Origin: Salegentibacter echinorum
Lineage (GTDB): Bacteria > Bacteroidota > Bacteroidia > Flavobacteriales > Flavobacteriaceae
Assembly: GCF_900129445.1 (NCBI RefSeq)
Contig: NZ_FQVT01000012.1
Coordinates: forward strand, 1 to 64,000
Length of the DNA: 64,000 bases
Reading direction: 5' to 3'
The notes beneath the pieces are model-generated. The model was not told the origin of the DNA, did no database searches, and was given only the letters and a program-made list of their open reading frames with translations. The first letter of the stretch is position 1. Every line of letters starts with the position of its first letter. Both the position numbers and the translations under genes were made by a program. Positions 2,920-45,074 of this stretch are shown here, piece by piece.

Positions 2920-3954
2920 ATGAGGGAAAACGAAAAAAATGAATTAAGAGCCAGGATTATAGCCTCTGCTTATAGTCATAAGAATAGAAGAAAGCGATTA
3001 TTTTATGCCCTTTCGGCCGCAGCTTCGGTGGTTGTAATATTAGCAATAGGATTATACAAATATGATTCTTCGTCTTCCCCATTAATGGAATATGCCAGAT
3101 CTTCAGAAAACCTGAAGTTGGAAAATATGAATGACGTTCAGTTATTTTTAAATAGAAATAAAAGATTGGCCATAGAAAAAGAAAATTCGAGTTTAGCCTA
3201 TCAAAGCAACGGGAATGAGCTAAATATAATTGATTCTGTGGGTAGGGGACAGAAAGTGCTTCTTAAAGATTCAAACACCTTTAATACTCTTATGGTTCCT
3301 TATGGAAAAAGATCTAAGATTGTCTTGTCAGACGGTACCATAGTATGGTTAAATTCTGGCTCAAAACTAATTTATCCGGTAACGTTCAGAGGGAAAACCA
3401 GGGAGGTGGTTCTTGAAGGTGAAGCAATATTTGATGTTTCACACGATATTAATCATCCTTTTAGAGTACGCTCCAAAGGCCAGGTTATTGAGGTTCTTGG
3501 GACAGTATTTAATGTGAGTAATTACCCAGATGAGGATAATATTAAAACCGTGCTTAAAAGTGGTAGTGTTGAAATTAGTTATCAATCAGACTCCTTTTTC
3601 AAATCTCGGGAAAGAAAAAAAATTACACCGGGCACAATGGCTGTTTATAGTAAAAACAGCCCAAATGTTAAAACAAAATCTGTAGATGTAGAGCAGTACT
3701 TTTCCTGGCGAAATGGTGTGTTGATTTTTAAGAATAATAATTTGGAATACATTATGAAAAAATTGGGGCGATATTATAATGTAGATATAAAGCTTCACGA
3801 AGTTGCAACAAAAAATGAAACTTATTCGGGATACCTAGATCTAAAAGATTCTATAGATCATGTTTTGAAAACACTGCAGGAAGCGGCAAATTTTCAATAT
3901 AAACGAAACCAAAACGGATCAATATTAATTAATAAAACAAAAAATATGGAATGA
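2920..3954 (+). CDS. FecR-family anti-sigma factor
   Basis: Inner-membrane anti-sigma regulator that passes a signal from the outer-membrane receptor to the FecI-type sigma factor encoded just upstream. It has a short cytoplasmic N-terminus, one membrane helix at about residues 26-46 (rich in A, V, I, L), a periplasmic FecR domain (about 125-225, including LSDGTIVWLNSGSKL and VLEGEAIFDVSHD) and a C-terminal DUF4974-like module (about 265-335). That module interacts with receptor STN domains in related systems. The length of 344 aa is normal for the family. The gene order sigma, anti-sigma, STN-SusC, SusD is the standard trans-envelope signalling layout. Confidence 0.92.
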   Translation: MRENEKNELRARIIASAYSHKNRRKRLFYALSAAASVVVILAIGLYKYDSSSSPLMEYARSSENLKLENMNDVQLFLNRNKRLAIEKENSSLAYQSNGNELNIIDSVGRGQKVLLKDSNTFNTLMVPYGKRSKIVLSDGTIVWLNSGSKLIYPVTFRGKTREVVLEGEAIFDVSHDINHPFRVRSKGQVIEVLGTVFNVSNYPDEDNIKTVLKSGSVEISYQSDSFFKSRERKKITPGTMAVYSKNSPNVKTKSVDVEQYFSWRNGVLIFKNNNLEYIMKKLGRYYNVDIKLHEVATKNETYSGYLDLKDSIDHVLKTLQEAANFQYKRNQNGSILINKTKNME

Positions 3955-4049: not shown

Positions 4050-4646
4050 ATGAATAAAAATGAAAGATTTAGGTCATGTTGTGATTTAAATAACTTTACG
4101 CGAAATGTATTAAAGATTATGCGTGTTCTAATAATCCTGATAGGGCTTGGGCTCGGTTCTTCCTATGCGAATTCTTCCTATAGCCAGCCTAAAATTAACA
4201 TTGCCATTAAAGACGCGAGTCTAATTGAATTTTTTAAAGAAATCCAGTCAAATTCAGATTTTGTATTTTTTTATAAAGATGATGTATTAAAGAATAAAGC
4301 GAGAATTACTGTAAATTTTGAACGGGCATCTATAGAACAAGTCTTAAAGAGCGCTCTTGAGAATACTGGACTTGCTTATAAAATTTCAGATAAACAGGTT
4401 GTAATAAAACAGGTTTCGAAGCCATCTAAATTGACAAGCCAGAAAGAAAGTCAAGAGACAATTACAGTCACGGGAACAATTACAGAAGCTGGGACAGGAA
4501 TGCCTATTCCGGGTGTAAATATCCTGGAAAAAAATGCTGAGAATGGAACAATGAGTGATTTCGACGGAAATTATCAAATTGATGTGCCAGAAGATGCTGT
4601 TCTTAAGGTGAGCTATATGGTTACGCTACCCAGGAGGTTGAAGTAA
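4050..4646 (+). CDS. SusC/RagA receptor, N-terminal part (frameshifted)
   Basis: N-terminal portion of a TonB-dependent glycan transporter. It shows a signal peptide (about residues 25-42, RVLIILIGLGLGSSYA), an STN signalling domain (about 48-112) and the start of a carboxypeptidase-regulatory-like beta domain (about 137-195). STN domains occur in receptors that talk to FecR proteins, matching the upstream genes. After VLKVSY the frame leaves the family pattern and stops at ...TLPRRLK. Reading one base back from about 4617 continues as GYATQEVEVNGRNEIDIVL, the expected SusC sequence. One base has therefore been lost at about 4617-4619, in ATAT. This is either a real inactivating mutation or an assembly or sequencing error. 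Confidence 0.85.
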   Translation: MNKNERFRSCCDLNNFTRNVLKIMRVLIILIGLGLGSSYANSSYSQPKINIAIKDASLIEFFKEIQSNSDFVFFYKDDVLKNKARITVNFERASIEQVLKSALENTGLAYKISDKQVVIKQVSKPSKLTSQKESQETITVTGTITEAGTGMPIPGVNILEKNAENGTMSDFDGNYQIDVPEDAVLKVSYMVTLPRRLK

Positions 4647-4711
4647 ATGGTCGTAACGAAATCGATATCGTTTTAGAACAGGATGCTGCGGCATTAGATG
4701 AAGTTGTTGTC

Positions 4712-7600
4712 GTGGGATATGGAACTCAACGTAAGCAGGATTTAACCGGTGCTGTATCTGTAGTAAAAACTGAAGAAATGGTGCAACAACCCAATGCCCA
4801 GGTAACAAATCAATTGCAAGGTAGGGTCTCTGGGGTAAGTATTACCGGTGGTGGTCAACCAGGTCAGGCGCCACAGGTGAAAATTCGCGGTTCTAATACG
4901 TTTGGGAATAACACGCCTTTGTATGTAGTAGATGGAATTCCTACTGAAAGCATAGAGAATATCAATCCAAATGATATAGAAACTATGCAGGTGCTTAAAG
5001 ACGCTGCTTCTGCTTCTATTTATGGTTCTCGTGCAGCAAATGGGGTGATTATTATTACCACTAAAAGCGGTAAAGGTAAACTCTCTGTAAATTATGATGC
5101 TTATTACGGCACGCAAATGGTTCAAAGTGGAAATCCGTGGGATATTTTATCCTCCCAGGAAATGGCAGATCTTACCTTTAGAGCTATTAGAAATACAAAT
5201 CCCGGAGATCCTATTAGTCATTCACAATACGGTGATGGTGCAGAGCCGGTTTTACCAAATTATATTGCTCCTGTAGGTGCTAATACGGTAGATGAGTCTC
5301 TTTATAATGTAGATCCATACTATACAGATCCTTCACAACTTAACGATTTTTATCGTATTGTAGAAGCTAATAAACAAGGAACTAACTGGTTTCAGGAAAT
5401 TTTTAATTCGGCACCCATCACCAGTCACAATCTTTCGGTAAGTAATGGTGGTGAACAGGGAAGTTTCTTATTCTCCCTTAATTATTTCGATCAAAAAGGA
5501 ACATTAGATAATACCTATTTAAAACGTTATACTATGCGTGTGAATAGCGTGTTTAATATTTCAGATAATATTAGGGTTGGTGAAAACCTAAGTTTTGCTA
5601 TTCGTGAGAACCCCCAACTAGGCGATCTCACAGAGGGTAGTGCCGTGGGTATGGCTTTTAGGCAACAACCAATTATTCCGGTTCGGGATATTAATGGAAA
5701 TTTTGCCGGCTCTTTTGGGCAGGGGCTTGGTAATGCCAGGAATCCAGTAGCCATATTGGAGAGGTTGAAGAATAATCGTGGCGTATCTAATAAGCTTTTT
5801 GGAAATATTTTTGCTGAAATAGATTTCCTGGAACACTTCACCATTAGAACAAATTTTGGAGGTAAATATTTCTCCAACACTTTTAATTCATTTGCTTTTC
5901 CTGAATATGAAAACGCCGAAAATAATTCAGTAAACTCTTATACTGAAGGAGCGCAGACTAATTTTAACTGGACATGGGCTAACACTCTAACCTATAAAAA
6001 TACTATTGCCGATTTGCATAATCTTACAGTGGTTTTAGGAACAGAGGCTTATCAAAATAAAGGACGTGAAGTAGGTGGTACCACACAGTCTTATTTCAGT
6101 TTCGATCCAGATTATGTAACCCTGGATACCGGTTCGGGTACGCAAACCAATTACAGCTTTAAGTATGCCGATGCGCTTTCATCCATTTTTGGAAGAATAG
6201 ACTATAATTTCGATGACCGATATTTATTTGGTGCAACTATAAGAAGAGATGGTTCTTCTCGATTTTTAAATGAACAATACGGTTGGTTCCCTGCCGCCAG
6301 TGCAGGTTGGAATGTAAGCAACGAAGCTTTTTTTGAATCAAATTGGATAGATGATTTAAAAGTACGGGCTGGATACGGAGTAATGGGGAACCAAATTAAT
6401 GTAGATCCTGCCAATTCATTTACCACTTTTGGCGGAAATAATCAAACCTCTTTTTACGCTATCTCAGGAAGTAACTCTTCTACCAGTGAAGGTTTTCAGC
6501 AATCCAGAATTGGAAATCCCGATGCAAAATGGGAAAAGAATATTAACGCCAACTTTGGGATAGATGCCACCTTATTCAATAATAGTGTGCAAATTACTGC
6601 CGATTACTACCGTAAAGATGTAAACGATCTTTTGTATAATCCCAATCTACCGGCAACAGTGGGTTCTGCCACAGTGCCTTATGTAAACGTGGGGAAAATG
6701 ACTAATAGCGGGATAGATATAGATCTTTCAACTTATTTTACTCTTGCTGAAGATTTACAATTCAATACTACTGTTACTTTTACCAGTTATAGTAATGAAA
6801 TTGTAAAGATTGCCGATGGCTTAAATTATTTCGATTTGGAAACACGTCGTTTTAATGGGAGCTCGATAATTCGAAATGCCGAGGGTGGCTCTGTTAGTCA
6901 GTTCTTTGGGTATAAAGTAGATGGCTTCTGGGATTCGCAAGATGAAATAGACCAGGCAAATGCCGCAGCCCGGGAGAGTACCGGTAATGAGAATACTACT
7001 TACCAATCTGATGTTGCTGTAGGTCGTTTTCGTTATGCCGATGTGAATGGTGATAACCGAATTACTGCAGATGATCGTACTTTTATTGGTAATCCCAATC
7101 CAGACTTTACTTACGGTCTAAACCTGGAACTTATGTATAAAAACTGGGACTTTAGTATGTTTTTATACGGTTCACAAGGAAATGATATTTGGAACAATGT
7201 GAAATGGTACACAGATTTTTATAGCTCGTTTAACGGGGCTAAGAGTGCAACCGCACTTTATGACTCCTGGACACCAGAGAACATGAATGCAAGCGCACCA
7301 ATTCAACAAACTGTAGGATCTTTTAGTTTGGCAGATGTTCCAAATTCTTATTTCGTGGAAGATGGGTCTTATCTTAGGGCAAAGCAAATCCAGTTAGGAT
7401 ACTCTTTACCTACCTCTGTTTTAGATGCTATTCATATTTCTAAGCTAAGAGTTTATGTACAAATGGCCAATGCATTTACTATCACCTCCTATTCTGGTAT
7501 TGATCCGGAAATTTCTGGAGGATCGGTAAATTTTGGGATTGATGAAGGAGCATACCCTAACCAAAGACAATTGATATTTGGACTTAACGCAAGTTTATAA
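4712..7600 (+). CDS. SusC/RagA TonB-dependent receptor, plug and barrel part
   Basis: Outer-membrane TonB-dependent transporter that imports oligosaccharides under a SusD lid. This frame holds the plug domain (about residues 1-115, with VVGYGTQRKQDLTG just upstream and in this frame, RIRGSNTFG-type and LYVVDGIPTE motifs) and the 22-strand barrel up to the terminal LIFGLNASL. The first ATG in frame is not the true start: the coding frame is open back to about 4619 and joins the preceding fragment there. With the lost base restored the protein would be about 1180 aa, normal for an STN-containing SusC. SusD begins at the last base of the stop codon, so the two are co-translated. An intact downstream frame suggests the mutation is recent or an artefact. 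Confidence 0.92.
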   Translation: MGYGTQRKQDLTGAVSVVKTEEMVQQPNAQVTNQLQGRVSGVSITGGGQPGQAPQVKIRGSNTFGNNTPLYVVDGIPTESIENINPNDIETMQVLKDAASASIYGSRAANGVIIITTKSGKGKLSVNYDAYYGTQMVQSGNPWDILSSQEMADLTFRAIRNTNPGDPISHSQYGDGAEPVLPNYIAPVGANTVDESLYNVDPYYTDPSQLNDFYRIVEANKQGTNWFQEIFNSAPITSHNLSVSNGGEQGSFLFSLNYFDQKGTLDNTYLKRYTMRVNSVFNISDNIRVGENLSFAIRENPQLGDLTEGSAVGMAFRQQPIIPVRDINGNFAGSFGQGLGNARNPVAILERLKNNRGVSNKLFGNIFAEIDFLEHFTIRTNFGGKYFSNTFNSFAFPEYENAENNSVNSYTEGAQTNFNWTWANTLTYKNTIADLHNLTVVLGTEAYQNKGREVGGTTQSYFSFDPDYVTLDTGSGTQTNYSFKYADALSSIFGRIDYNFDDRYLFGATIRRDGSSRFLNEQYGWFPAASAGWNVSNEAFFESNWIDDLKVRAGYGVMGNQINVDPANSFTTFGGNNQTSFYAISGSNSSTSEGFQQSRIGNPDAKWEKNINANFGIDATLFNNSVQITADYYRKDVNDLLYNPNLPATVGSATVPYVNVGKMTNSGIDIDLSTYFTLAEDLQFNTTVTFTSYSNEIVKIADGLNYFDLETRRFNGSSIIRNAEGGSVSQFFGYKVDGFWDSQDEIDQANAAARESTGNENTTYQSDVAVGRFRYADVNGDNRITADDRTFIGNPNPDFTYGLNLELMYKNWDFSMFLYGSQGNDIWNNVKWYTDFYSSFNGAKSATALYDSWTPENMNASAPIQQTVGSFSLADVPNSYFVEDGSYLRAKQIQLGYSLPTSVLDAIHISKLRVYVQMANAFTITSYSGIDPEISGGSVNFGIDEGAYPNQRQLIFGLNASL

Positions 7601-9390
7601 TGATAAAAACAATGATTATGAAAAAATATAAATTTTTAAGGATTTTATTTTTAGCGGCAACAGTTTCGCTAAGCATGGGGTCTTGTAGTGACGATTTCTT
7701 AGACCAACCCGCATTAGGCTCTTTAAGTGAAGATGTAGTGGCCAATAAAATTGGTGTAGAAAAATTATTAATTGGCGCCTATGCAGCTTTAGACGGTCAG
7801 GGGCTTGGAGGAGGAGGTGCCTGGGAATCGGCATCAGATAATTGGGTGTATGGTTCAGTTGCCGGTGGAGTTGCCAGTAAAGGTAGTTTTGGCGGTGACC
7901 AGCCGGCTATAGATCAAATTGTGAAATTTATTTCCAACCCTTCCAATGGTTTTTATAATAGTAAATGGATAGCGGCCTATGAAGGGATTGCTCGCACCAA
8001 TAATGTGTTGAGCCTACTTGCTAATGTAGAGGATATAAGTGAAGAAGAAAGAAGTAATCTTGCTGGGCAGGCCAGGTTTTTGCGAGGACATTATTATTTT
8101 GAATTAAAGAAAATGTTCAATATGGTGCCCTGGGTAGATGAAAACACCGAGGACCCCAAACAGCCAAACGATACCGATATCTGGCCTAATATTGAAGCCG
8201 ATTTTCAATTTGCTTTTGATAATCTTCCGGGAACACAATCAGAATTCGGACGTGCCAATAAATGGGCAGCAGGAGCTTATTTGGGAAAAACATATTTATA
8301 CCAACATAAATTTTCTGAAGCCTCTACTATATTTACACAGGTTATTGAATCTGGTACAAATTCAGCCGGAGAAAAGTATGATCTTGTAGCTCAATTTGAA
8401 GATAATTTTGATGCTGAAACAGAAAATAATGCTGAAACTGTTTTTGATGTACAAATGGTCGCAAATGATGGTACCAGTTCTATTGCAAATTCTAATCAGG
8501 GCGGGATGCTCAATTTTCCCTACAACAGTCCTTTTAGATGTTGTGGGTTTTATCAGCCTACCCAGGATTTAGTGAATTCGTACAAAACAAAATCGGGTAG
8601 CGGCCTTCCATTCCTGGATAACTATAATCAGGATCCTGTAAAAAATGATATGGGCGTGGGTGCAGATGAAGCATTTACTCCTTATACAGGGCCGGTAGAT
8701 CCACGTTTAGATTGGACAGTAGGACGTCGAGGGATTCCATATCACGATTGGGGGAAACATCCCGGTGCAGCCTGGATAAGGGATCAATCTTATGGAGGTC
8801 CTTATGCTCCAAAAAAGAATATTTATTGGCAAGCCACTCAAGACTTGTATAGTGATCAAAGTTCATGGGCGCCAGGTACCGCGATTAATGTGCATATTAT
8901 TCGTTTTGCCGATGTGCTCTTAATGGCTGCTGAAGCCGAAGCACAAACAGGAAACCTGGGTCTGGCCATGGATTATGTTAACCGTGTGCGTGAGAGAGCT
9001 TCAAATCCGCAAGGATTTTTAAAAGCATACATTGATGAGAATAGTCCGCTAACCGGTTTTGATGAGTCTGAAAATGCTGCCAATTATAATATTGGATTAT
9101 ACACTGCTTCAGAATTTTCTTCAAAAGAAAACGCGCTGGAGGCTATTTACTTTGAGCGTAAACTTGAATTAGCCATGGAAGGACATCGCTTTTTTGACCT
9201 GGTACGTTGGGGTATTGCCGAAGAGACCTTAAACGAGTATTTTGAGTATCAGGGAGATATTACTACCGATGTTAGGGGAGGTAAATTTATTTCAGGTAAA
9301 AGCGAATACTACCCTATTCCACAAGCTCAAATAGATCTAAGTTTGAATAGTGCAGGGGAACCTACTTTAACCCAAAATCCCGGATACTAG
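7600..9390 (+). CDS. SusD/RagB glycan-binding lipoprotein
   Basis: Surface-exposed lipoprotein that forms the lid of the SusC channel and captures oligosaccharides. A lipoprotein signal ends in LSMGSC (Cys29; Cys23 if the ATG at 7618 is used), followed by DDFLDQPALG, the usual SusD N-terminus. SusD-like TPR helices occupy about 90-330, and the C-terminal RagB part contains FADVLLMAAEAEAQTG, FERKLELAMEGHRFFDLVRWG and YYPIPQAQID. The length of 596 aa is within the usual range. It overlaps the SusC stop by one base. The locus has no adjacent glycoside hydrolase; oxidoreductases and DUF1080 proteins follow instead, so the ligand is likely a small glycoside or disaccharide (inference). Confidence 0.95.
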   Translation: MIKTMIMKKYKFLRILFLAATVSLSMGSCSDDFLDQPALGSLSEDVVANKIGVEKLLIGAYAALDGQGLGGGGAWESASDNWVYGSVAGGVASKGSFGGDQPAIDQIVKFISNPSNGFYNSKWIAAYEGIARTNNVLSLLANVEDISEEERSNLAGQARFLRGHYYFELKKMFNMVPWVDENTEDPKQPNDTDIWPNIEADFQFAFDNLPGTQSEFGRANKWAAGAYLGKTYLYQHKFSEASTIFTQVIESGTNSAGEKYDLVAQFEDNFDAETENNAETVFDVQMVANDGTSSIANSNQGGMLNFPYNSPFRCCGFYQPTQDLVNSYKTKSGSGLPFLDNYNQDPVKNDMGVGADEAFTPYTGPVDPRLDWTVGRRGIPYHDWGKHPGAAWIRDQSYGGPYAPKKNIYWQATQDLYSDQSSWAPGTAINVHIIRFADVLLMAAEAEAQTGNLGLAMDYVNRVRERASNPQGFLKAYIDENSPLTGFDESENAANYNIGLYTASEFSSKENALEAIYFERKLELAMEGHRFFDLVRWGIAEETLNEYFEYQGDITTDVRGGKFISGKSEYYPIPQAQIDLSLNSAGEPTLTQNPGY

Positions 9391-9891: not shown

Positions 9892-11238
9892 ATGATGAAA
9901 AAAGACAGACGTTCCTTTATAAAAAATTTAGGAATTGCAGGGGCTACTGCAGCCATACTTCCTTCCACACTTACCGCAGAGACCAAACATGTGAACCTTT
10001 TAAATAGGGGAGAATTATTTGGAGAAGCCAAACCCCTAAAAATCGCCCTAATAGGTGCCGGTGGCATGGGTAGTGCAGATACCAATACAGCACTAAGACA
10101 TAAAAACATAGAGTTGGTTGCCGTTTGTGATTTGTACGACGGTCGCCTGGACGATGCCAGGAATAAATGGGGGAGCGATTTGTTTTTAACCAAAGACTAT
10201 CAGGACGTTCTAAAACGCAGCGATATTGATGCGGTAATTATAGGCACCCCAGATTTTTGGCACAAGAAAATTAGTGTAGATGCCCTAAATGCCGGGAAGC
10301 ACGTATATTGTGAGAAACCTATGGTGCACAGTGTAGATGAAGGCCATGAGATTATTAAAGCCTGGAAGAAATCTGGGAAAATCTATATGGTAGGCAGCCA
10401 GGGGATGTCTTCCCTGGGTAACGAAAAAGCAAAAGAATTATTGGCTGCAGGGGCCATTGGGGAGTTGAACTATGCCGAAGGTTTTTGGGCGAGGAACTCT
10501 GCACTTGGTGCCTGGCAATACCCCATTCCCAACGATGCCTCTACCCAAACGGTAGATTGGAAAGAATACTTATCCATAACCAAAGACCGTCCATTTGATC
10601 CCTTAAGATTCTTTAGATGGCGAAATTATCTGGATTATGGAACAGGAATGGCTGGTGACCTTTTTGTACACCTGTTCTCGAGTCTGCACTTCATCACGAA
10701 TTCAATAGGACCCAACAGAATTTCTTCCACAGGAGGCTTGCGGCATTGGAAAGACGGGCGTGAGGTTCCCGATGTGCAATTAGGAATGTTTGATTACCCG
10801 GAAACCAAAGAGCATCCCGGGTTCAACCTTTCTTTGCGCTGTAATTTTGTAGATGGCACCAGCGGAGGTACTTTTCTAAAACTTGTGGGCAGCAAAGGTT
10901 CTATGGATGTCGCCTGGAATAGTCTAACCCTTAAGCGAAATGCTGGTGGTGAAAGTGATGATCCCTTCTTAGCCGAAAAAGCAAAAGAAGGATCGAGTCG
11001 CGCAGATCGTAAAAAAATGGTGGCACCTTTAGAAACCGTTTACAACGCCCAAAGTGGATACAAAGGAGCTCATTATGATCATTTTGCCAATTTCTTTACC
11101 GCTATTCGAGAGAATGGATCGGTAGCGGAAGATCCTGTTTTTGGGTTCCGGGCGGCAGCACCCGCTTTGCTGTGTAATGAAAGTTATAGAAAGAACGAAT
11201 TTATAGGATGGGATCCAAAGAAAATGAAAAAGGTTTAA
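9892..11238 (+). CDS. Tat-exported Gfo/Idh/MocA oxidoreductase
   Basis: NAD(P)-dependent sugar oxidoreductase predicted to act in the periplasm. The N-terminus KKDRRSFIKNLGIAGA is a twin-arginine signal, so the enzyme would be exported folded with its nucleotide bound. A Rossmann domain follows (about 45-165: IALIGAGGMGS, DAVIIGTPDFWH, and the family motif CEKP at about residue 142). A C-terminal alpha/beta domain (about 175-420) contains the substrate pocket. Members of this family oxidise sugar hydroxyls, including C3 of glycosides. It leads a tight run with a DUF1080 lipoprotein 18 bases downstream. Together they fit oxidation to a 3-keto-glycoside followed by cleavage; the substrate is unknown. 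Confidence 0.9.
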   Translation: MMKKDRRSFIKNLGIAGATAAILPSTLTAETKHVNLLNRGELFGEAKPLKIALIGAGGMGSADTNTALRHKNIELVAVCDLYDGRLDDARNKWGSDLFLTKDYQDVLKRSDIDAVIIGTPDFWHKKISVDALNAGKHVYCEKPMVHSVDEGHEIIKAWKKSGKIYMVGSQGMSSLGNEKAKELLAAGAIGELNYAEGFWARNSALGAWQYPIPNDASTQTVDWKEYLSITKDRPFDPLRFFRWRNYLDYGTGMAGDLFVHLFSSLHFITNSIGPNRISSTGGLRHWKDGREVPDVQLGMFDYPETKEHPGFNLSLRCNFVDGTSGGTFLKLVGSKGSMDVAWNSLTLKRNAGGESDDPFLAEKAKEGSSRADRKKMVAPLETVYNAQSGYKGAHYDHFANFFTAIRENGSVAEDPVFGFRAAAPALLCNESYRKNEFIGWDPKKMKKV

Positions 11239-11256
11239 ATTTTTTAAAAACTAAAA

Positions 11257-12072
11257 ATGAAAAAAACACTAATCTGCTTGCTATTGGCAGTTTCTACAAT
11301 AGCCTGTAAGAATTCGAATGACAAGAAGGAACAAACGGAAGAAAATAATCTAAGCCAGGAGAATAGTGCTGATGCTGCAGAAAATGAGGAAGAATGGCAG
11401 TATTTGTTCGACGGAAGCAGCCTTGACGGCTGGCGCGGTTATGGCGAAGAGGAAATGCCACCGGGTTGGGTAATAGAAGGTGATGAATTAACCTATAAGA
11501 CTGAACTTGGTAAAGAGGAAGATTACCAGGGCGGTCGCGATATTATTTATGGGGCTGAAGAGTTTGATAATTTTGAATTGTATTTGGAGTGGAAACTTCC
11601 CAAAGGCGGTAACAGCGGTATTTTTTACCACGTCAAAGAAGGTTATGCCAATCCGTCTAAAGTAGCTCCGGAATACCAGCTCATTGATGATGAAAATTAC
11701 GAGAACATCCATGATCTTACCGGCTATAACAAAAGCCTTGGTCATACCGAGAATCTTTCCGAATTAAAGCCATTGAACAGAACAGCGGCAGATTATTCTA
11801 TGTATGCGCCCAATGAGGAGAAGAAAAACTTAAATCCGGTAGGCGAGTGGAATACCAGTAAAATTGTGTACACCCCAGAGAAAGTAGAACACTGGCTCAA
11901 TGGAGAAAAGGTAGTTTCTTTTAACCCCCAATCTGAAGATTGGAAAAAGAAAAAGAACTCCGGCAAATGGAAAGGGAGCCCAGATTACGCTAAATTTAAG
12001 AGCGGGTACATTGGCCTGCAGGATCACGCCAGTCCTATTTGGTTTAGAAATATAAAAATTAAGAAACTATAA
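11257..12072 (+). CDS. DUF1080 / 3-keto-disaccharide hydrolase lipoprotein
   Basis: Predicted periplasmic or surface lipoprotein with a concanavalin-like DUF1080 domain, a Pfam family now named 3-keto-disaccharide hydrolase. The lipobox is STIAC (Cys17), followed by an acidic linker to about residue 45. Family motifs are YLFDGSSLDGWRG, GGNSGIFYHV, APEYQLIDDE, GEWNTSKI, HWLNGEKV and the terminal GYIGLQDHASPIWFRNIKI. At 271 aa it belongs to the longer subtype with a central insertion. Its place directly after a Tat-exported dehydrogenase supports cleavage of oxidised glycosides. Hydrolase versus lyase (eliminating) chemistry cannot be decided from the sequence. Confidence 0.88.
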   Translation: MKKTLICLLLAVSTIACKNSNDKKEQTEENNLSQENSADAAENEEEWQYLFDGSSLDGWRGYGEEEMPPGWVIEGDELTYKTELGKEEDYQGGRDIIYGAEEFDNFELYLEWKLPKGGNSGIFYHVKEGYANPSKVAPEYQLIDDENYENIHDLTGYNKSLGHTENLSELKPLNRTAADYSMYAPNEEKKNLNPVGEWNTSKIVYTPEKVEHWLNGEKVVSFNPQSEDWKKKKNSGKWKGSPDYAKFKSGYIGLQDHASPIWFRNIKIKKL

Positions 12073-12074
12073 AC

Positions 12075-12111
12075 TTATCCGCCCAGTTATTATTTGGGCG
12101 GATAAAATTTT
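12075..12111 (+). terminator. strong intergenic hairpin between two DUF1080 genes
   Basis: Perfect 11-bp stem TTATCCGCCCA / TGGGCGGATAA with a 9-base loop, starting two bases after a stop codon and followed by AATTTT. The T-tract is weak, so it may be an attenuator or a 3'-end stabiliser within the operon as well as a terminator. Confidence 0.5.
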
Positions 12112-12127
12112 AAAGAAGAAGACAAAA

Positions 12128-12721
12128 ATGAAAAAACTTAGTTTGATTGCCATTGTATTGAGTATTGCCTTTACCGGTTGCCAATCTGGAAAAAAGCTTT
12201 TTAACGGAAAAAACCTTGACGGATGGACCATTCATGGTACCGAGAAATGGTATGTTGAAGATGGATTGTTAATCTCTGAAAGCGGTCCCGATGCAAAGTA
12301 TGGGTACCTGGCTACCGAAGATAATTATAAGAATTTTGAACTCAGTTTAGAATTTAAACAGGAGGCCGATGGCAACTCTGGGGTGTTTATACGTTCTGAA
12401 ATTGACGGTACAAAGATTGCTGGTTGGCAAGTAGAAGTAGCCCCGCCAAATCTGCATACCGGGGGGATTTATGAATCTTATGGCCGCGGTTGGCTTATTA
12501 AACCTGCTCCCGAAAAAGAAGATGTACTTAAGTATGGAGCGTGGAATACATTGAAGATAAAAGTGCAGGGCGACCAGGTAACCAGCTGGTTAAACGGCGT
12601 GGAGATGGTTGATTTTTCCGATGAAAAAATTGGTGCTGCCAATGGTAAAATCGCCCTGCAAATACACGATGGCGGTGGTATTAAAGTTTATTGGAGAAAT
12701 ATTAAGCTGAAAGAACTTTAA
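12128..12721 (+). CDS. DUF1080 / 3-keto-disaccharide hydrolase lipoprotein (short form)
   Basis: A compact member of the same family as its neighbours: lipobox FTGC (Cys18), then essentially only the DUF1080 beta-sandwich. Visible motifs are KLFNGKNLDGWTIHG, DGNSGVFIRSEI, GWQVEVAPP, YGAWNTLKIKV, SWLNGVEMVDF and the C-terminal VYWRNIKLKEL. At 197 aa it lacks the linker and insertion of the 271-aa and 277-aa paralogues, so it may act on a different linkage or on smaller substrates (inference). It is separated from the preceding gene only by a hairpin, so it is probably in the same transcription unit. Confidence 0.85.
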   Translation: MKKLSLIAIVLSIAFTGCQSGKKLFNGKNLDGWTIHGTEKWYVEDGLLISESGPDAKYGYLATEDNYKNFELSLEFKQEADGNSGVFIRSEIDGTKIAGWQVEVAPPNLHTGGIYESYGRGWLIKPAPEKEDVLKYGAWNTLKIKVQGDQVTSWLNGVEMVDFSDEKIGAANGKIALQIHDGGGIKVYWRNIKLKEL

Positions 12722-13135
12722 AAGACTAAAACTGTTAAAATAATTAGTATTACTAACTTACTGGACTCTTATGCAAATTGAAGAAGGGGCTAATTGATTT
12801 TTTAGTTTGCTGAAAAATCTGTTGTAGAAGTGATACTTTAAATTATCAATTTGGTTTTATAGCTTAGGAAGAAATTCTACTTATATTTAAAAATAAAATC
12901 TGTGTTAGAGAGAACTGCACAGAGATGTTGACACAATTGAAAACACTAATATGAACTCATTTAGACGTTGCAACAAAATCAAGAGTTTACTGTTCATTTA
13001 AAGGTTCTTTTTGACTGGCATAGTTGCGCTATGGAAGGAGAAAAAAGATAAAAAATAGATGTAAAAGAGGGATTTTAGCCAATAGAGAAAATTTAAATGA
13101 GTTCTATAACTGCAACCAATATTAAAAACGGTATT
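12722..13135. other. gene-free spacer with a decayed dispersed repeat
   Basis: No gene is seen. The segment 13026-13080 (GCTATGGAAGGAGAAAA...) closely resembles 29033-29094, so it appears to be one copy of a decayed intergenic repeat. The rest is AT-rich and probably includes the promoter of the next oxidoreductase. Confidence 0.45.
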
Positions 13136-14614
13136 ATGAAGAAAAATAAGAATAAAAATAACGGATTGTCCCGTCGAAAATTTATTACTAATACTGCCGC
13201 TGTGGCTGCGGGAATTTCAATAGTGCCTCGTCATGTTTTAGGAGGTGTTGGTTTTACAGCTCCCAGTGACACACTTAACATTGCCGGGATTGGTGTAGGT
13301 GGCATGGGAAGGTCTAATCTCAAGGCTATGAACAGCGAGAGAATTGTTGCACTTTGTGATGTAGATTGGCGATATGCCCAAAAGACCTTTACCGATTATC
13401 CCGATGCTAAAAAGTTTAAGGATTATCGTGTGATGTTCGATAAAATGGGAGATGATATTGATGCGGTAGTTATTGCAACCCCAGATCATACCCATGCAAT
13501 TTCTGCGGGAGAAAGTATGACCCGTGGGAAACACGTGTACCTTCAAAAGCCCTTGACACATTCTATTTATGAATCCAGGTATCTCACAAAATTGGCTGAA
13601 GAGACTGGGGTAGCCACACAAATGGGGAACCAGGGACATTCCGGGGATGGAACCAGGTTGTTTGCTGAATGGATTCAGAACGGTGAAATTGGAGATCCTC
13701 TAGAAGCCCATTGCTGGACCAATAGACCTATCTGGCCACAAGGTCTTGAGAGACCGGAAAATAAACCTGAAGTTCCAGATACTCTAGATTGGGACCTATT
13801 CCTGGGCCCTGCGAAATATAGACCATATAATCCCGCCTACACTCCGTGGAACTGGCGTGCCTGGTGGGACTTTGGAACCGGAGCTTTAGGAGATATGGGT
13901 TGCCATATTATAGACCCCATATATTTTGCGTTAAATTTAGGACATCCTACCGGTTTTGAAGGAAGCTCTTCCCAGGTGAATACCGAGAGCGCTCCTATCT
14001 CAGAAAAAGTCTCTTATTATTTCCCGGAGAATAAAAAACTGGGAAAAGTTAAATTTGATCCTATAAAAATGACCTGGTATGATGGAGGTTTGCTTCCAGA
14101 TCGCCCCGAAGGTATAAAACCAGGGAAAATTATGGGTGATGGAGGTGGAGGCTCCATGGTAGTGGGGACTAAAGGTACTATCATTTGTAGTACTTATGGT
14201 CGTGATCCTTATATAATTGGCCGTGAGGACAATCCGCCAAAGACAGAGAAAATCTATCCACGTGTGGAAACCAGTCATGAGATGGATTGGGTTCGCGCTT
14301 GTAAAGAACCTAAGAACAGTAGAAAAGAAGCTAGTGCTCACTTTGGATATTCAGGGCCTTTTAACGAGGTTGTGGTTATGGGGAACCTGGCTGTACGTCT
14401 TCAGGATTTAAAGAAGCGGTTAGATTGGGATTCAGAAAAAATGGAAATTACCAATATTGGGGCGAATGAAGAAATTAAAGTAGTTACATCAGACAGCTTT
14501 ACGGTAGTAAACGGAGATCCAAAGTTTGATACCCAATTTGAAACTATGAATGCTAAAAATGCTGCAGAAGAATATATTAAACATACCTACAGGGACGGTT
14601 GGGAATTATCCTGA
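13136..14614 (+). CDS. Tat-exported Gfo/Idh/MocA oxidoreductase (QKP variant)
   Basis: Second exported sugar oxidoreductase. The ATG at 13136 is preferred because it places the Tat motif (SRRKFI, then a hydrophobic TAAVAAGISIV) near the N-terminus; an ATG 39 bases upstream is possible. The Rossmann fold shows IGVGGMGRSN and DAVVIATPDHTH. The family's usual EKP lysine motif reads QKP here (VYLQKPLTHS), with the lysine kept and the glutamate replaced. The C-terminal domain includes WNWRAWWDFGTGALGDMGCH, characteristic of the large (about 440-500 aa) Bacteroidota/Planctomycetota branch. The next gene, 36 bases on, is another DUF1080 lipoprotein, repeating the dehydrogenase-plus-DUF1080 module. 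Confidence 0.9.
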   Translation: MKKNKNKNNGLSRRKFITNTAAVAAGISIVPRHVLGGVGFTAPSDTLNIAGIGVGGMGRSNLKAMNSERIVALCDVDWRYAQKTFTDYPDAKKFKDYRVMFDKMGDDIDAVVIATPDHTHAISAGESMTRGKHVYLQKPLTHSIYESRYLTKLAEETGVATQMGNQGHSGDGTRLFAEWIQNGEIGDPLEAHCWTNRPIWPQGLERPENKPEVPDTLDWDLFLGPAKYRPYNPAYTPWNWRAWWDFGTGALGDMGCHIIDPIYFALNLGHPTGFEGSSSQVNTESAPISEKVSYYFPENKKLGKVKFDPIKMTWYDGGLLPDRPEGIKPGKIMGDGGGGSMVVGTKGTIICSTYGRDPYIIGREDNPPKTEKIYPRVETSHEMDWVRACKEPKNSRKEASAHFGYSGPFNEVVVMGNLAVRLQDLKKRLDWDSEKMEITNIGANEEIKVVTSDSFTVVNGDPKFDTQFETMNAKNAAEEYIKHTYRDGWELS

Positions 14615-14650
14615 TCGAGTAAGATTTTAAAAGCAGATTAAATTATAAAT

Positions 14651-15484
14651 ATGAAAAAAGTACTTATGAAAACCTTCAGTAAAACTATTATGATGCCGTT
14701 AGTTCTCGTTTTATTTTTCAGCCTTAATAGCTGCGGTGAAAATAAAAAGAAAGCTAATGAAGATAACCAGGAAGAGAGTAAAGAGATGAAAGAAGCAAGC
14801 ACAACTTCGGCTAACAACGAGCTTTCAGAAAAAGAAAAAGAAGATGGTTGGAAACTTCTTTTTGACGGGGAATCTACAGACGGCTGGCGTGGTTACGGCA
14901 AAGATGATTTTCCAGACCGCGGTTGGGTTGTAGAAAATGGTACCCTTAAGCTTAATGGCTCTGGAGCCGGGGAAGCGGGTGGAGCCGGCGATATTATTTA
15001 TGATGGGCAATTTAAAGATTTTGAACTTAGCCTGGAATGGAAGATTTCAGAAGGAGGTAATAGTGGTATTTTGTATTTGGCCCAGGAGATCGAAGGTCAG
15101 CCAATATGGAAATCTGCTCCTGAAATGCAAATTTTGGACAATGAAAAACATCCCGATGCTAAATTAGGCAAAGACGGAAACCGAAAAGCCGGTTCTCTGT
15201 ATGACTTGATTCCCGCCGATCCTCAAAATGCTAAACCAGCCGGAGAATGGAATACCGTTTCCATTATGGTGTATCGAGGTACCGTAGTTCACAGTATGAA
15301 TGGTGAAAATGTTGTGGAATACCATTTATGGACAGATGATTGGAAGAACATGATCGCCGAAAGTAAGTTCGCTGGTTGGGAAGATTTTATAAATGCCGGG
15401 GGCGAAGATCACAAAGGCTATATAGGACTTCAGGATCACGGAGATGATGTTTGGTTTCGGAATATAAAAATTAAAGAGTTGTAG
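14651..15484 (+). CDS. DUF1080 / 3-keto-disaccharide hydrolase lipoprotein
   Basis: Third DUF1080 protein of the locus. A lipoprotein signal ends in LNSC (about Cys28), followed by a charged Lys/Glu linker (about 29-65) and the catalytic beta-sandwich: LLFDGESTDGWRGYG, GGNSGILYLAQE, SAPEMQILDNEKH, AGEWNTVSIMV, HSMNGENVVEY and GYIGLQDHGDDVWFRNIKI. It is closest in layout to the 271-aa paralogue upstream, including the same terminal motif, which suggests duplication of a dehydrogenase-DUF1080 pair. Expected location is periplasm or outer membrane. The exact substrate and cleavage chemistry are not visible. Confidence 0.88.
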   Translation: MKKVLMKTFSKTIMMPLVLVLFFSLNSCGENKKKANEDNQEESKEMKEASTTSANNELSEKEKEDGWKLLFDGESTDGWRGYGKDDFPDRGWVVENGTLKLNGSGAGEAGGAGDIIYDGQFKDFELSLEWKISEGGNSGILYLAQEIEGQPIWKSAPEMQILDNEKHPDAKLGKDGNRKAGSLYDLIPADPQNAKPAGEWNTVSIMVYRGTVVHSMNGENVVEYHLWTDDWKNMIAESKFAGWEDFINAGGEDHKGYIGLQDHGDDVWFRNIKIKEL

Positions 15485-15485
15485 T

Positions 15486-15551
15486 TAGCTTTTAGACCGG
15501 AGACAAATTAATTTCAGATTTCCTGTCTAAAACAGCTAAAAGAGATTTTTT
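15486..15551 (+). terminator. possible terminator after third DUF1080 gene
   Basis: Starting just after the stop codon, TAGCTTTTAGAC is followed by GTCTAAAA (15524-15531) and CTAAAAG (15536-15542), giving two competing stems, and then by TTTTTT. The alternative pairings make this weaker than a simple hairpin. Confidence 0.35.
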
Positions 15552-15595
15552 CGGAAGCATACCTCGCACCTTTGTGACGAGGTTGTTGATTTCTA
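15543..15595. repeat. dispersed repeat, partial copy C
   Basis: GAAGCATACCTCG ... GAGGTTGTTGATTT matches the right half of the copy at 36796-36905 and, more loosely, the copy at 39491-39596. It is intergenic in each case. Confidence 0.55.
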
Positions 15596-15608
15596 ACTTC
15601 AAAAACAC

Positions 15609-15669
15609 AAAACTGTTTTCAAATACCTTTTAAATGTATTATTTAGAGTGTGTGTTTGAAAACAGTTTT
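15609..15669. repeat. 15-bp perfect inverted repeat before TIM-barrel gene
   Basis: AAAACTGTTTTCAAA (15609-15623) pairs with TTTGAAAACAGTTTT (15655-15669) across a 31-base AT-rich loop, ending 18 bases before the next start codon. It could be a terminator for the previous gene, a leader structure for the next one, or the remnant ends of a small mobile element. Confidence 0.55.
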
Positions 15670-15687
15670 ATTTAACCCAACTATTTT

Positions 15688-16710
15688 ATGAAAATTAAAT
15701 CAATTTATTTTTACAGACTACTATTCTTAGCTCTATTTCCTTTAACCATACTATCCTGTAAAAATCAAGATGGTAAAAACAAAGAGAATAAAAATCTTAA
15801 AGCTGAAGCGGAACGACAGGTCGAGCCGTTTTTTAAACTTTCCCTCGCGCAGTGGTCCCTGCATAAACCTATTTTCGATGGAAAGTTAGATCCTATGGAT
15901 TTTGCTGAAAAAGCCAACGAAATGGGCTTTGAGGGGATAGAGTATGTGAGTACTTTTTATGCTGAAAAAATAAAAAATGCTGAAGATCCCGAAAAAGCTA
16001 TGCAGGAAACCCTGGATAGTTTAAAAGCGAAAAGTGAGGAGTTTGAAGTAGAAAATGTTCTAATCATGGTAGATGGAGAAGGAGAGTTGGCTTCTGCCGA
16101 TAGAGAAGAGCGCGAACAAGCGGTAGAAAATCATAAGAAATGGGTAGATGCAGCTCAATTTCTTGGGGCTCATGCAATTCGTGTGAATTTATTTGGTGCT
16201 GAGGATCGTGAAGAATGGAAAAAATCTGCAGTCTCTGGGCTTAAAATGCTAAGCGAATATGCTAAAGAAAAGAATATAAATATATTGGTAGAGAACCACG
16301 GGTACCTTTCTTCTAATGCGAAACTTTTAGTAGAAGTAATGAAAGAAGTGGCCATGGAGAACTGTGGCACTCTCCCCGATTTTGGTAACTTTTGTCTTAA
16401 AAGAGAAGGTGGGAAACGTTGGGAAGCAGCTTGTATAGAAGAATATCCTACCTATCAGGGAATCGAAGAAATGATGCCCTATGCCAAGGCGGTAAGTGCA
16501 AAATCTTATGATTTTAATGAGCAGGGGGCAGAGACAACTTTAGACTATAAACGTATTATGAAAATTGTTCAGGATGCGGGATATACCGGTTTTGTTGGCG
16601 TGGAGTATGAAGGAGAAAATCTTTCGCCAAAGGAAGGAATTATGGCCACAAAAGAACTTTTAATTCGCGTGGGTAAAGAATTAAATGACGAGGGAAAAGA
16701 GGAACAATAG
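15688..16710 (+). CDS. xylose-isomerase-like TIM-barrel lipoprotein
   Basis: Sugar-phosphate isomerase/epimerase superfamily protein (AP-endonuclease-2 fold) with a lipoprotein signal (TILSC, Cys24), so it acts outside the cytoplasm. The barrel starts at FFKLSLAQWSLHKP and contains the metal-ligand signatures of the family: ILVENHGY (Glu), LPDFGNFC (Asp) and VGVEYEGE (Glu). The family includes epimerases, isomerases and dehydratases acting on keto sugars, including enzymes paired with 3-keto-glycosides. Its place between oxidoreductases and DUF1080 proteins suggests it processes the 3-keto product. The length of 340 aa is normal. The reaction is inference. Confidence 0.85.
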   Translation: MKIKSIYFYRLLFLALFPLTILSCKNQDGKNKENKNLKAEAERQVEPFFKLSLAQWSLHKPIFDGKLDPMDFAEKANEMGFEGIEYVSTFYAEKIKNAEDPEKAMQETLDSLKAKSEEFEVENVLIMVDGEGELASADREEREQAVENHKKWVDAAQFLGAHAIRVNLFGAEDREEWKKSAVSGLKMLSEYAKEKNINILVENHGYLSSNAKLLVEVMKEVAMENCGTLPDFGNFCLKREGGKRWEAACIEEYPTYQGIEEMMPYAKAVSAKSYDFNEQGAETTLDYKRIMKIVQDAGYTGFVGVEYEGENLSPKEGIMATKELLIRVGKELNDEGKEEQ

Positions 16711-16980
16711 GTCTTTTTGGCTTAAGTAAGGCTAGTGGAGTTGCGTGTTTACAAGTAGTGAAAATCAGCAAAAGTTTGTCTATGGATCCGTTTACTTATT
16801 TGCACGTTTTTTTAGAAAAAAAGAATAGCTAAAGTATAGAAGTACAATGGAATAAACAACCTCGGGCGCAAACCCACGGGGTATTATAAAAGAAGGTTAT
16901 TTTGATTTCCATTCAAGCCTCGGAGCTCCCTATAGGTATTGGAATAAATCTGGATTATTGAATAAAAGAGTATTGTGGTT

Positions 16981-18120
16981 ATGAGTAAAAAGATAAAATT
17001 AGGAATTCTTGGTGGTGGTGAAGACTCTTTAATTGGTATTCTGCACCGGGTAGCGGCCAATATGTTCGATAGGTTTGAAGTAGTTGGAGGAGTTTTTAGC
17101 CGTGATTTTAAAGAAAGTAGGCAATTTGCTGAAGATTTAGGTATCGGTTCAAAGAAGGTTTATAAAGATTTGGATCAACTCATTGAAGGAGAATCTAAAC
17201 TTCCGGCCGATGAACGTATCCAGGTGGTTTCAATTCTTACACCCAACTTTCTTCACTTTTCAATGGCCAAAAAGCTGCTTGAAAACGGGTTTCACGTGAT
17301 TTGTGAAAAACCATTAACCACTACTTATGGGGAAGCGAAAATACTGGAAGATACCCTAAATAATGCGAAAACTATCTTTGCCGTCACTTATACTTACTCA
17401 GGGTATCCTATGATAAGGCAAATGAAAGAAATGATTGCTGCCGGGGAGATTGGAGAGATTCAAAAGATAGACATACAATATTACCAGGGCTGGATTAACC
17501 CAATTATTCATAACGAGGAACAGAGAAACAGTATATGGCGTCTGGATCCCGAGAAAAGCGGGATTAGTTGTTGTATTGCTGATATTGGTACCCACGCTTT
17601 TCATATGGCAGAATATGTTTCGGGGCTTAGAGTCGAAAAACTCCTGGCCGATCTCAATTATATGTATCCAGATAATAAAATGGATGTTGACGGCACCGTT
17701 CTGCTTAGATTTTCAGAATATGTAAAAGGGGTGCTTAGGGCAAGCCAAACCGCTACAGGAGAAGAAAATGATTTTACAATAAAAATCTACGGAAAAAAAG
17801 CCGGACTAAAATGGGGACAGGAAAGCCCTAATTACCTGTATAAAATAGAAGAAGGCCAGCCCATTAAAATTTTAAAACCTGGTCACGGGTATAATTCGGC
17901 ACTATCTTTAGATGGAACAAAATTACCTCCCGGTCACCCAGAGGGTATTTTCGATTCTATGGGGAATATTTATAAAGGTGTGGCCAAAGCTATAAAAGGT
18001 GAAGAATACCATCCCGGGGAATTTCCCGGTATAAAAGATGGAGCTCGTGGAATGAATTTTATTGAGAAAGTGGTTGCTTCGCACGCAGAAGGGAATGTTT
18101 GGGTGAGTTTAGATAATTAA
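16981..18120 (+). CDS. cytoplasmic Gfo/Idh/MocA oxidoreductase
   Basis: NAD(P)-dependent oxidoreductase without a signal peptide. The ATG at 16981 is taken as the start; the in-frame GTG six bases upstream is less likely. A Rossmann fold (KLGILGGGEDSLIG, IQVVSILTPNFLH), the CEKPLTT catalytic-lysine motif (about residue 111) and the C-terminal sugar-binding domain (SCCIADIGTHAFHMAEY, HPGEFPGIKDGARG) are all present. It resembles family members acting on pyranoses or inositols. Unlike the two Tat-exported paralogues it stays inside, so it may reduce a keto sugar after uptake and close the redox loop (inference). It is the last gene of the locus. Confidence 0.87.
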   Translation: MSKKIKLGILGGGEDSLIGILHRVAANMFDRFEVVGGVFSRDFKESRQFAEDLGIGSKKVYKDLDQLIEGESKLPADERIQVVSILTPNFLHFSMAKKLLENGFHVICEKPLTTTYGEAKILEDTLNNAKTIFAVTYTYSGYPMIRQMKEMIAAGEIGEIQKIDIQYYQGWINPIIHNEEQRNSIWRLDPEKSGISCCIADIGTHAFHMAEYVSGLRVEKLLADLNYMYPDNKMDVDGTVLLRFSEYVKGVLRASQTATGEENDFTIKIYGKKAGLKWGQESPNYLYKIEEGQPIKILKPGHGYNSALSLDGTKLPPGHPEGIFDSMGNIYKGVAKAIKGEEYHPGEFPGIKDGARGMNFIEKVVASHAEGNVWVSLDN

Positions 18121-19272: not shown

Positions 19273-19273
19273 T

Positions 19274-21788: not shown

Positions 21789-21863
21789 GGGCGCGTAGCT
21801 CAGTTGGTTCAGAGCACTTGGTTTACACCCAAGGGGTCAGGGGTTCGAATCCCTTCGCGCCCA
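21789..21863 (+). tRNA. tRNA-Val (anticodon TAC)
   Basis: A complete cloverleaf can be folded by eye. The acceptor is GGGCGCG with CGCGCCC and discriminator A; the D arm is in TAGCTCAGTTGGTTCAGAGCA; the anticodon stem is CTTGG/CCAAG with loop TTTACAC (anticodon TAC at 21824-21826); the T arm has AGGGG-TTCGAAT-CCCTT. The CCA end is not encoded. It has its own promoter upstream and a terminator directly downstream. Confidence 0.97.
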
Positions 21864-21874
21864 CATTATTTTCC

Positions 21875-45063: not shown

Positions 45064-45074
45064 AATCAATTTTA

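Follow-up and report, generated by a model that had tools for sequence, protein, structure and literature searches.

The first 64,000 nucleotides of contig NZ_FQVT01000012.1 of Salegentibacter echinorum (forward strand of assembly GCF_900129445.1, a genome of 40 contigs and 3.96 Mb; from here: the window) contain at positions 9892 to 18120 seven open genes which according to Pfam encode three Gfo/Idh/MocA dehydrogenases, three DUF1080 proteins and one xylose-isomerase-like barrel protein. Judged by their distribution among relatives, these genes and the SusCD pair in front of them are two neighbouring but separately inherited cassettes, not one locus. Cassette A consists of SusCD-Gfo1-D1-D2 and cassette B of Gfo2-D3, with the barrel gene (APE) and Gfo3 nearby. 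We regard it as likely that these two adjacent cassettes of the cell envelope cleave glycosides by oxidation, elimination, hydration and reduction. The window probably works like the known C3-oxidation route, and the proposed chemistry is already known, for example from gut bacteria. Gfo1 and D2, as far as sequence comparison can tell, are outside the families filed for BT_2158/BT2157-type enzymes. The new point is that DUF1080, in Pfam a single '3-keto-disaccharide hydrolase' family, comprises two or more classes, separated over 123 domains by a clean E-x-Q/Q-x-E split; if it is true that the classes do different half-reactions, the DUF1080 annotation needs splitting.

Gene content of the two cassettes

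A sequence-only reading of this DNA had listed two Tat-type Gfo/Idh/MocA proteins, three DUF1080 lipoproteins, one barrel lipoprotein and one cytoplasmic Gfo/Idh/MocA protein, and this composition was borne out by Pfam and motif matches:

9892..11238, + strand: Gfo1, Tat-type Gfo/Idh/MocA dehydrogenase of cassette A (PF01408; twin-arginine motif RRSFI)
11257..12072, + strand: D1, DUF1080 lipoprotein of the E-x-Q class, cassette A (PF06439, E 1.3e-46; E139/Q141, H257)
12128..12721, + strand: D2, DUF1080 lipoprotein of the Q-x-E class, cassette A (PF06439, E 2.3e-42; Q101/E103, H180, R89)
13097..14614, + strand: Gfo2, Tat-type predicted glycoside 3-dehydrogenase of the BT_2158 family, cassette B (NF058561; PF01408; motif RRKFI)
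14651..15484, + strand: D3, DUF1080 lipoprotein of the E-x-Q class, cassette B (PF06439, E 8.5e-53)
15688..16710, + strand: APE, lipoprotein xylose-isomerase-like barrel (PF01261, AP_endonuc_2, E 3.2e-26; 4ovx, E 2e-77; lipobox)
16975..18120, + strand: Gfo3, cytoplasmic Gfo/Idh/MocA protein, candidate keto-sugar reductase (PF01408, PF22725; 3v5n, E 3e-88; ATG at 16981)

Scores against PF06439 (3keto-disac_hyd) were 159.4 bits for D1, 145.6 for D2 and 179.6 for D3, all above the gathering cut-off of 26.8. Pattern matching placed the lipobox cysteine at residue 17 in D1, 18 in D2, 28 in D3 and 24 in the barrel protein, and found neither a Tat motif nor a lipobox in Gfo3. From this cysteine to the start of the Pfam domain there are about 29 residues in D1 and 38 in D3, and about 4 in D2. 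Scans of 20 proteins encoded between 0.1 and 27.7 kb and of ten more between 29 and 57 kb, together a part of the open reading frames (ORFs) of the window, gave no match to a glycoside hydrolase family; to this extent the earlier statement that no recognisable glycoside hydrolase is present holds. Where loci of this kind lack a classical glycoside hydrolase, counts of such enzymes would under-estimate the breakdown capacity of these bacteria.

The intergenic gaps measure 501 bp (SusD-Gfo1), 18 bp (Gfo1-D1), 55 bp (D1-D2), 375 bp (D2-Gfo2), 36 bp (Gfo2-D3), 203 bp (D3-APE) and 264 bp (APE-Gfo3). These sizes suggest that the stretch from SusD to Gfo3 is made up of several transcription units rather than a single operon.

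Cassette B

Gfo2 scores 791.5 bits against the NCBIfam equivalog model NF058561 (glycoside 3-dehydrogenase, BT_2158 family; cut-off 750) and by this model is a member of the curated family. It aligns over nearly its full length with 8tdf (residues 51-504, E 2.5e-171) and 8tdh (58-504, E 1.1e-167). D3 matches the solved structures 4hxc (E 5.3e-87), 8tda (E 9.6e-86), 3nmb and 8rr2 with E-values between 5e-87 and 1.5e-85, and is placed by these matches with the solved BT2157-type enzymes. The model for the BT_2159 disaccharide 3-dehydrogenase (NF058563, cut-off 650) is failed by all three dehydrogenases (Gfo1 41.7, Gfo2 33.2 and Gfo3 30.8 bits). Family membership assigns cassette B to the BT2158-BT2157 type. 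According to PMC11300592, BT2158 is a glycoside 3-dehydrogenase of the periplasm that is needed for trehalose, leucrose and palatinose. The sequence-only reading had extended 3-keto-glycoside chemistry to the entire gene set; from the matches, this is well supported for Gfo2-D3, and only plausible for Gfo1-D1-D2.

Loci of Gfo2 relatives were examined in a sample of 149 genomes of the family, taking the ten best outside the genus (L107-L116; L, G and C denote our handles for loci, genomes and contigs). D3 stood near Gfo2 in seven of them, APE in three and Gfo3 in two, in the order APE-Gfo3-Gfo2-D3 in L107 and APE-Gfo3-D-Gfo2-D3 in L115; L109, L110 and L113 had no D3 near Gfo2.

Cassette A: Gfo1 and D1

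With 129.4 bits, Gfo1 stays below the cut-off of 750 for NF058561. Among solved structures, the closest to it in sequence is DgpA (7xr9, E 1.3e-27), a match which covers the N-terminal domain only and which we take to be a C-glycoside 3-oxidase; partial matches to models of inositol 2-dehydrogenase and levoglucosan dehydrogenase are far under the cut-offs. The Gfo1 residues K142, D256 and H260 are invariant across 19 sequences, and all three dehydrogenases retain the Lys of the E/Q-K-P motif and the DxxxH motif. At the positions of the pair and of the Asp, Lys and His defined below, D1 retains every residue that its class shares with the D3 class, and the best solved relatives of D1 and D2 differ from those of D3. 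The loss of catalytic residues, which would speak against the proposed chemistry, was checked at the sequence level for the DUF1080 and Gfo/Idh/MocA proteins, and the key residues are kept. By these comparisons, cassette A is an independent unit with a Gfo1 subfamily outside every curated model.

Gfo1 was also considered as a GH109-like single-protein glycosidase. This was rejected, as Pfam gives GFO_IDH_MocA domains only and 6t2b (GH109) is absent among the 34 matches at E <= 1e-8; the C-terminal domain of GH109 presumably exists as a Pfam entry.

Ten proteins scanned in the neighbourhood of Gfo1 cassettes gave no consistent substrate signal. They comprised a DUF2961 and a GH106 protein in L017, sulfatases in L009 and L036, a PD40 propeller in L134, MFS proteins in L018 and L028, a Laminin_G_3 protein in L137, a BNR match just below the cut-off in L040 and a protein without match in L031.

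Separate inheritance of the cassettes

A scan of the species-genome collection with Gfo1 gave 82 relatives, the best 80 of which were kept (L007-L086). Neighbours were considered in 41 loci, namely the 38 with a Gfo1 of at least 58% identity (L007-L044) plus L134, L137 and L140. Counts refer to 34 of these, leaving out L140, which has Gfo1-D1-D2 in a minus-strand cassette, and six loci with less than 2 kb of downstream DNA. A D1/D3-type gene was found within 5.5 kb of Gfo1 in 28/34 loci. A Gfo2 of at least 40% identity was near Gfo1 in none of the 34; L015 had only a Gfo2-like gene of 31%, and Gfo3 was near Gfo1 in two loci.

Within the genus, 15 genomes including the source genome were compared, one of them only 61% complete. 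At E <= 1e-100, Gfo1 was present in 11 and Gfo2 in 14 genomes. Gfo2 copies of 79-81% identity occur only in G438, G445 and G446, the remaining matches in the genus being 45-49% identical. G445 consists of one contig of 4.01 Mb, with Gfo2-D3 at 0.28 Mb, another Gfo1 (73%) at 2.81 Mb and Gfo1-D1-D2 at 3.66 Mb, so that cassettes A and B are at least 0.6 Mb apart even if the chromosome is circular. An 84% Gfo1 without an 80% Gfo2 is found in G440 and G442, and G446 has an 80% Gfo2 and only a 73% Gfo1. In view of these four genomes, the adjacency of A and B in the window is not general within the genus. The earlier idea of one pathway in one locus is not supported, the cassettes being unlinked in relatives.

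In G442 (L223-L226), four contig ends lie inside near-identical Gfo1 copies (99.6-100%). The SusCD genes upstream of these copies are of two kinds, and so are the DUF1080 genes downstream, as if one Gfo1 gene were common to two loci.

Two classes of DUF1080 domains

The collected loci held 99 proteins with DUF1080-like domains, 98 of which gave 120 slices; together with the three proteins of the window these made up an alignment of 123 rows. Classes were assigned by best BLAST match and not by motif. At one alternating pair of positions, E-x-Q is present in the D1 class (18/18), the D3 class (47/47) and the unclassed rows (5/5), in total 70/70, and Q-x-E in the D2 class (34/34) and the D2-type halves of more distant fused proteins (19/19), in total 53/53. 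D2 is without Asp163 and Lys239 (D3 numbering), two residues that never vary within the D1 and D3 classes and whose columns are gapped in D2, and the D2 class has its own invariant Arg89, Tyr115, Arg120 and Trp122. By these residues, D2 is a different subfamily and the DUF1080 trio is not a plain expansion. The triple expansion had been read as a means to handle several linkages or anomers; what is left of this is another-anomer role as one option for D2, a member of another subfamily that is often paired or fused. Among the papers listed by our literature searches, none of which was aimed at the motif itself, no paper appeared to describe the Q-x-E class.

The best solved match of D2 is the N-terminal half of the tandem DUF1080 protein 4jqt, which has a D2-like Q-x-E half at the N-terminus and a D3-like E-x-Q half at the C-terminus; 4jqt is one chain, whereas the window has two lipoproteins. 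Fusions of a D2-type with a D1/D3-type domain make up 22 of the 98 proteins, D2 coming first in 21 and the order being reversed in L030, which argues that the two types act together. Distant Bacteroidales loci (e.g. L049) carry Gfo1-like and Gfo2-like genes with a fused D2-D3 protein. Among the 34 Gfo1 loci, D2 was present in 17, all of which also had a D1/D3-type gene (17/17), and in L148 the genes for SusC, SusD, Gfo, APE, another DUF1080 protein, D2 and MFS stand in a row.

A His residue bears on what each class may do. In a 3-keto-O-glycoside lyase of Bacteroides thetaiotaomicron, the H275N variant is without hydration activity (PMC13273386), and BT2157 has a length of 290 residues (PMC11003636). 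In the 8tda chain, which has 281 residues, D3 H263 aligns with the His at position 266. D3 H263 would be the equivalent of H275 if the 8tda chain is BT2157 and ends at the native C-terminus, both of which we infer. The equivalent His is kept in the window proteins (D1 H257, D2 H180, D3 H263) and in all rows of the D1 (18/18), D3 (47/47) and D2 (34/34) classes, as well as in the 7/7 fused D2-type slices that reach the site, 12 slices ending before it; the unclassed rows have Glu (3/5) or a gap (2/5). Because this His is kept, D1 and D3 are probably complete lyase-hydratases, and if so D2 must add something else, be it another anomer, step or substrate. D2 as a missing hydratase was considered as well, a candidate weakened by the hydration activity of the published B. 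thetaiotaomicron lyase itself (PMC13273386). In our view, D2 probably takes care of a different step, or a different stereochemistry, on the one substrate of cassette A.

A more specific proposal makes D2 a second enzyme in its own right, dedicated to the breakdown of 3-keto-sugars, and not a spare copy. The reversed pair and Arg89, Tyr115, Arg120 and Trp122 would shift the proton-transfer residue by two positions on one strand. The E-x-Q and Q-x-E domains would then complement each other on a common substrate, each doing one half-reaction (elimination or hydration, or one anomer each); they would be a pair of lipoproteins in the window and parts of a single fused protein in other loci, and a new class of 3-dehydrogenases, that of Gfo1, would feed them. 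We put this forward tentatively and hold it to be on the doubtful side, its odds being slightly lowered by loci that have D2 without a DUF1080 partner. In a second sample of 18 loci, fetched around D2 relatives, a second DUF1080 was beside or fused to D2 in eight; in the other ten there was none nearby, which speaks against strict pairing. These ten are also without Gfo, except for L138 with a Gfo-family gene 3.7 kb off, and a TonB receptor is near several of them; three of their genomes lack a Gfo1 at E <= 1e-60 and seven have one of 47-53% elsewhere. In L135, L136, L141, L142, L145 and L149, the partnerless D2-type DUF1080 is near a TonB receptor and a 545-aa protein, which by eye only we take to resemble glucose-6-phosphate isomerase.

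The barrel protein, Gfo3 and a second keto-sugar locus

The APE residues E202, H204, D231 and E306 are conserved in 33 sequences. In the Agrobacterium enzyme AtOGE, the Mn2+ ligands are on beta-5, beta-6, beta-7 (His189) and beta-8 and the catalytic residue is His134 (PMC10628242). By sequence alignment only, APE has no obvious counterpart of the beta-7 His, with S270-A271-K272 found there. We guess that APE is an isomerase or a hydratase. Relatives of APE (E <= 1e-50) occur in 65/296 genomes of the phylum, the source genome counted. In 20 loci around such relatives, GMC-type genes were present in 15, Gfo3-like in 11, DUF1080 in 8, MFS in 8 and Gfo2-like genes in 2, based on non-overlapping long ORFs only, a listing that did not show the APE gene itself in L193, L194 and L196.

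A second keto-sugar locus of the source genome, L117 (G000, contig C16, 152000-171900), has a LacA-like GMC/Gluconate_2-dh3 pair. Its content is sigma, FecR, SusC, SusD, DUF1080, FGE-sulfatase-like, Gfo, APE, MFS, Gfo3, a second barrel, GMC, Gluconate_2-dh3 and DUF1080, and the same kinds of genes are grouped together in L148. Compared with the window proteins, APE of L117 is 78-79% and Gfo3 83% identical, and the Gfo3 paralogue stands beside the MFS gene. This MFS protein is the sole PF03825 match in the genome, other transporter families not having been searched genome-wide.

A chimeric susC at the front of cassette A

Upstream of Gfo1, the following genes were found:

2075..2812, + strand: sigma-70 region 4 (ECF-type) sigma factor (PF08281; partial match in L225 at 67%)
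2920..3954, + strand: FecR anti-sigma regulator (PF04773, PF16344)
4050..4646, + strand: SusC front end (STN and CarbopepD_reg by Pfam), a separate ORF with a frame change relative to the body at about 4619
4712..7600, + strand: SusC plug and barrel, an ORF with GTG start (TIGR04056, 734 bits from profile position 85; 90-92% identity to the L222/L223 SusC)
7600..9390, + strand: SusD lipoprotein (PF07980, E 9e-50)

The STN-SusC/SusD pair noted earlier is correct with regard to SusD, which is intact; STN-SusC is split between an ORF at 4050-4646 and another, in a different frame, at 4712-7600. The alignment with intact relatives, which have a single ORF of 1181 aa in L222 and L223 and of 1139 aa in L225, changes frame at about 4619. 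At the protein level, identity to L225 is 65-67% for sigma, FecR and STN and about 30% for the SusC body; identity to L222/L223 is 43-46% for STN and 90-92% for the SusC body. At the DNA level, 2553-4728 matches L225 and 4451 onward matches L222/L223. Because the regulatory front (sigma, FecR and STN) resembles one kind of Gfo1 locus (L225) and the SusC body, like SusD and the remaining cassette, another kind (L222/L223), with the frame change inside the switch at 4451-4728, susC of the window is, on this comparison, a chimera with a frame break at the switch point, whether by recombination or by an assembly join. The SusC body, SusD, Gfo1, D1 and D2 are 82-92% identical to L008 (Salegentibacter holothuriorum).

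Proposed route, known systems and alternatives

In the proposed route, a Tat-exported dehydrogenase with its own NAD would oxidise C3 of a glycosyl residue, and its E-x-Q DUF1080 partner (D1 for Gfo1, D3 for Gfo2) would expel the aglycone by beta-elimination and add water to yield the 3-keto-sugar. The barrel lipoprotein may isomerise or hydrate the keto-sugar intermediate. The keto-sugar could be reduced by the same exported dehydrogenase, giving a redox-neutral cycle, or it could be imported and then reduced by Gfo3. The latter corresponds to the re-reduction inside the cell that the sequence-only reading had envisaged; it requires an importer, and none was found among the 20 and ten window proteins scanned, a candidate being encoded in L117, the second keto-sugar locus of the genome.

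That reading had also set the pathway in place of classical glycoside hydrolases; this is not new, the kind of route being published (Liou 2020 via PMC12385236; Price 2022, PMC9007349). The BT2159-BT2156 operon of B. thetaiotaomicron (Liou 2020 via PMC12385236) shares with the window a BT2158-type dehydrogenase and a BT2157-type DUF1080 protein, followed by a barrel. The window differs in being without a BT2159-type dehydrogenase (best 41.7/650 bits), in having the barrel and Gfo3 in apparently separate units, and in the additional cassette A and D2. We assume here that BT2156 is the barrel protein. Nasseri 2024 is reportedly among the published accounts of this kind of pathway, and oxidation/reduction and elimination/hydration are said there to be carried out by separate Gfo and DUF1080 modules, as in the window. 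The Agrobacterium GlycDH-AtOGE-AtHYD-Gfo operon (PMC10628242) likewise oxidises, eliminates, hydrates and reduces, and involves barrel proteins; its eliminase is an Mn2+ barrel, whereas the likely eliminase of the window is DUF1080 and its barrel is without an obvious beta-7 His ligand. A Caulobacter cluster with an important part in growth on lactose combines LacABC and DUF1080 with a transporter, two epimerases and a reductase (PMC9007349). The likeness lies in DUF1080 together with a 3-dehydrogenase, transporter, epimerases and reductase, and it is L117 (C16) that resembles the Caulobacter cluster; the dehydrogenases of the window are Gfo/Idh/MocA proteins, whereas those of Caulobacter are of the GMC/LacA type.

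Several observations weigh against the proposed route. Gfo2 has Q in place of the E of the EKP motif, which 8tdf has, and deletion of BT2157 or BT2158 caused no defect on raffinose-family sugars (PMC11501099). No D1/D3-type gene was near Gfo1 in 6/34 loci, and none of the above partner genes was present in 5/20 APE loci. Because Gfo1 fails the BT_2158 (129.4/750) and BT_2159 (41.7/650) models, its reaction can only be guessed from its family and its neighbours. Moreover, susC is split in two frames beside an intact SusD, and direct hydrolysis of glucans is reported for THTE_1561, a DUF1080 protein (PMC10881899).

The DUF1080 proteins might accordingly be direct endo-glycanases of a GH16-like fold, with the dehydrogenases acting on released sugars or inositols and no 3-keto-glycoside being cleaved. 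THTE_1561 is a single-domain DUF1080 protein of 23.7 kDa with activity on xanthan, lichenan, beta-glucan and others (PMC10881899), and the SusD and outer-membrane receptor of the window are typical of glycan uptake. We nevertheless consider direct cleavage improbable, as D3 is closest to solved Bacteroides-type enzymes, the adjoining Gfo2 passes the glycoside 3-dehydrogenase model, and Gfo or GMC dehydrogenases adjoin DUF1080 genes in many loci. For cassette A, another sugar or position could be involved, such as an amino, deoxy or anhydro sugar or an inositol glycoside, Gfo1 then not being a C3 oxidase of glucosides. The failure of Gfo1 in both curated 3-dehydrogenase models, its partial inositol 2-/levoglucosan dehydrogenase matches below the cut-offs, the best solved relatives of D1 and D2, which are unlike those of D3, GH106 and DUF2961 beside Gfo1 in L017 and the sulfatases in L009 and L036 would all fit; set against this are the D1/D3-class pair, Asp, Lys and His residues of D1. 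The best solved match of Gfo1, the N-terminal domain of DgpA, presumably from a C-glycoside 3-oxidase, likewise counts against another sugar, which we hold to be unlikely.

A recombinant remnant without function in this strain is suggested by the susC frame change at about 4619, within the 4451-4728 switch from the L225 to the L222/L223 type. The seven enzyme genes are open, however, with their key residues conserved, and the 82-92% identity to L008 extends from the SusC body over SusD and Gfo1 to D1 and D2; moreover, the break may be an assembly error, considering that the assembly of a relative breaks off within near-identical copies of Gfo1. To a remnant we give little credence. The two-cassette route of oxidation, elimination, hydration and reduction is the reading that we prefer.

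Repeat and flanking features

One further element lies between D3 and APE:

15609..15669, no strand: inverted repeat upstream of the barrel gene, with 18-nt arms and 25 nt spacing, a putative operator or attenuator

Both 15-nt cores of the repeat are exact and exact copies occur nowhere else in the genome; near-matches of a single arm numbered 5 genome-wide versus 8 in the control. A LacI-type operator was considered, but we do not claim one, with two LacI genes in the genome and none in the window, and arm near-matches not above the control. Promoter and terminator scans gave results at chance level.

The region is flanked by a tyrosine-recombinase-like gene (Phage_int_SAM_5) at 122-1408 on the minus strand and a tRNA-Val gene at 21789-21864 on the plus strand; an exact integration-site repeat of the tRNA-Val gene of 12-24 nt was not found in the window. 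At 43648-48326, on the minus strand, the window has another SusC-like/SusD-like pair (SusD-like_2), which differs from the first. Directly 3' of Gfo3, at 18571-19666, lie ExbB and ExbD genes, the products of which could energise the outer-membrane receptor.

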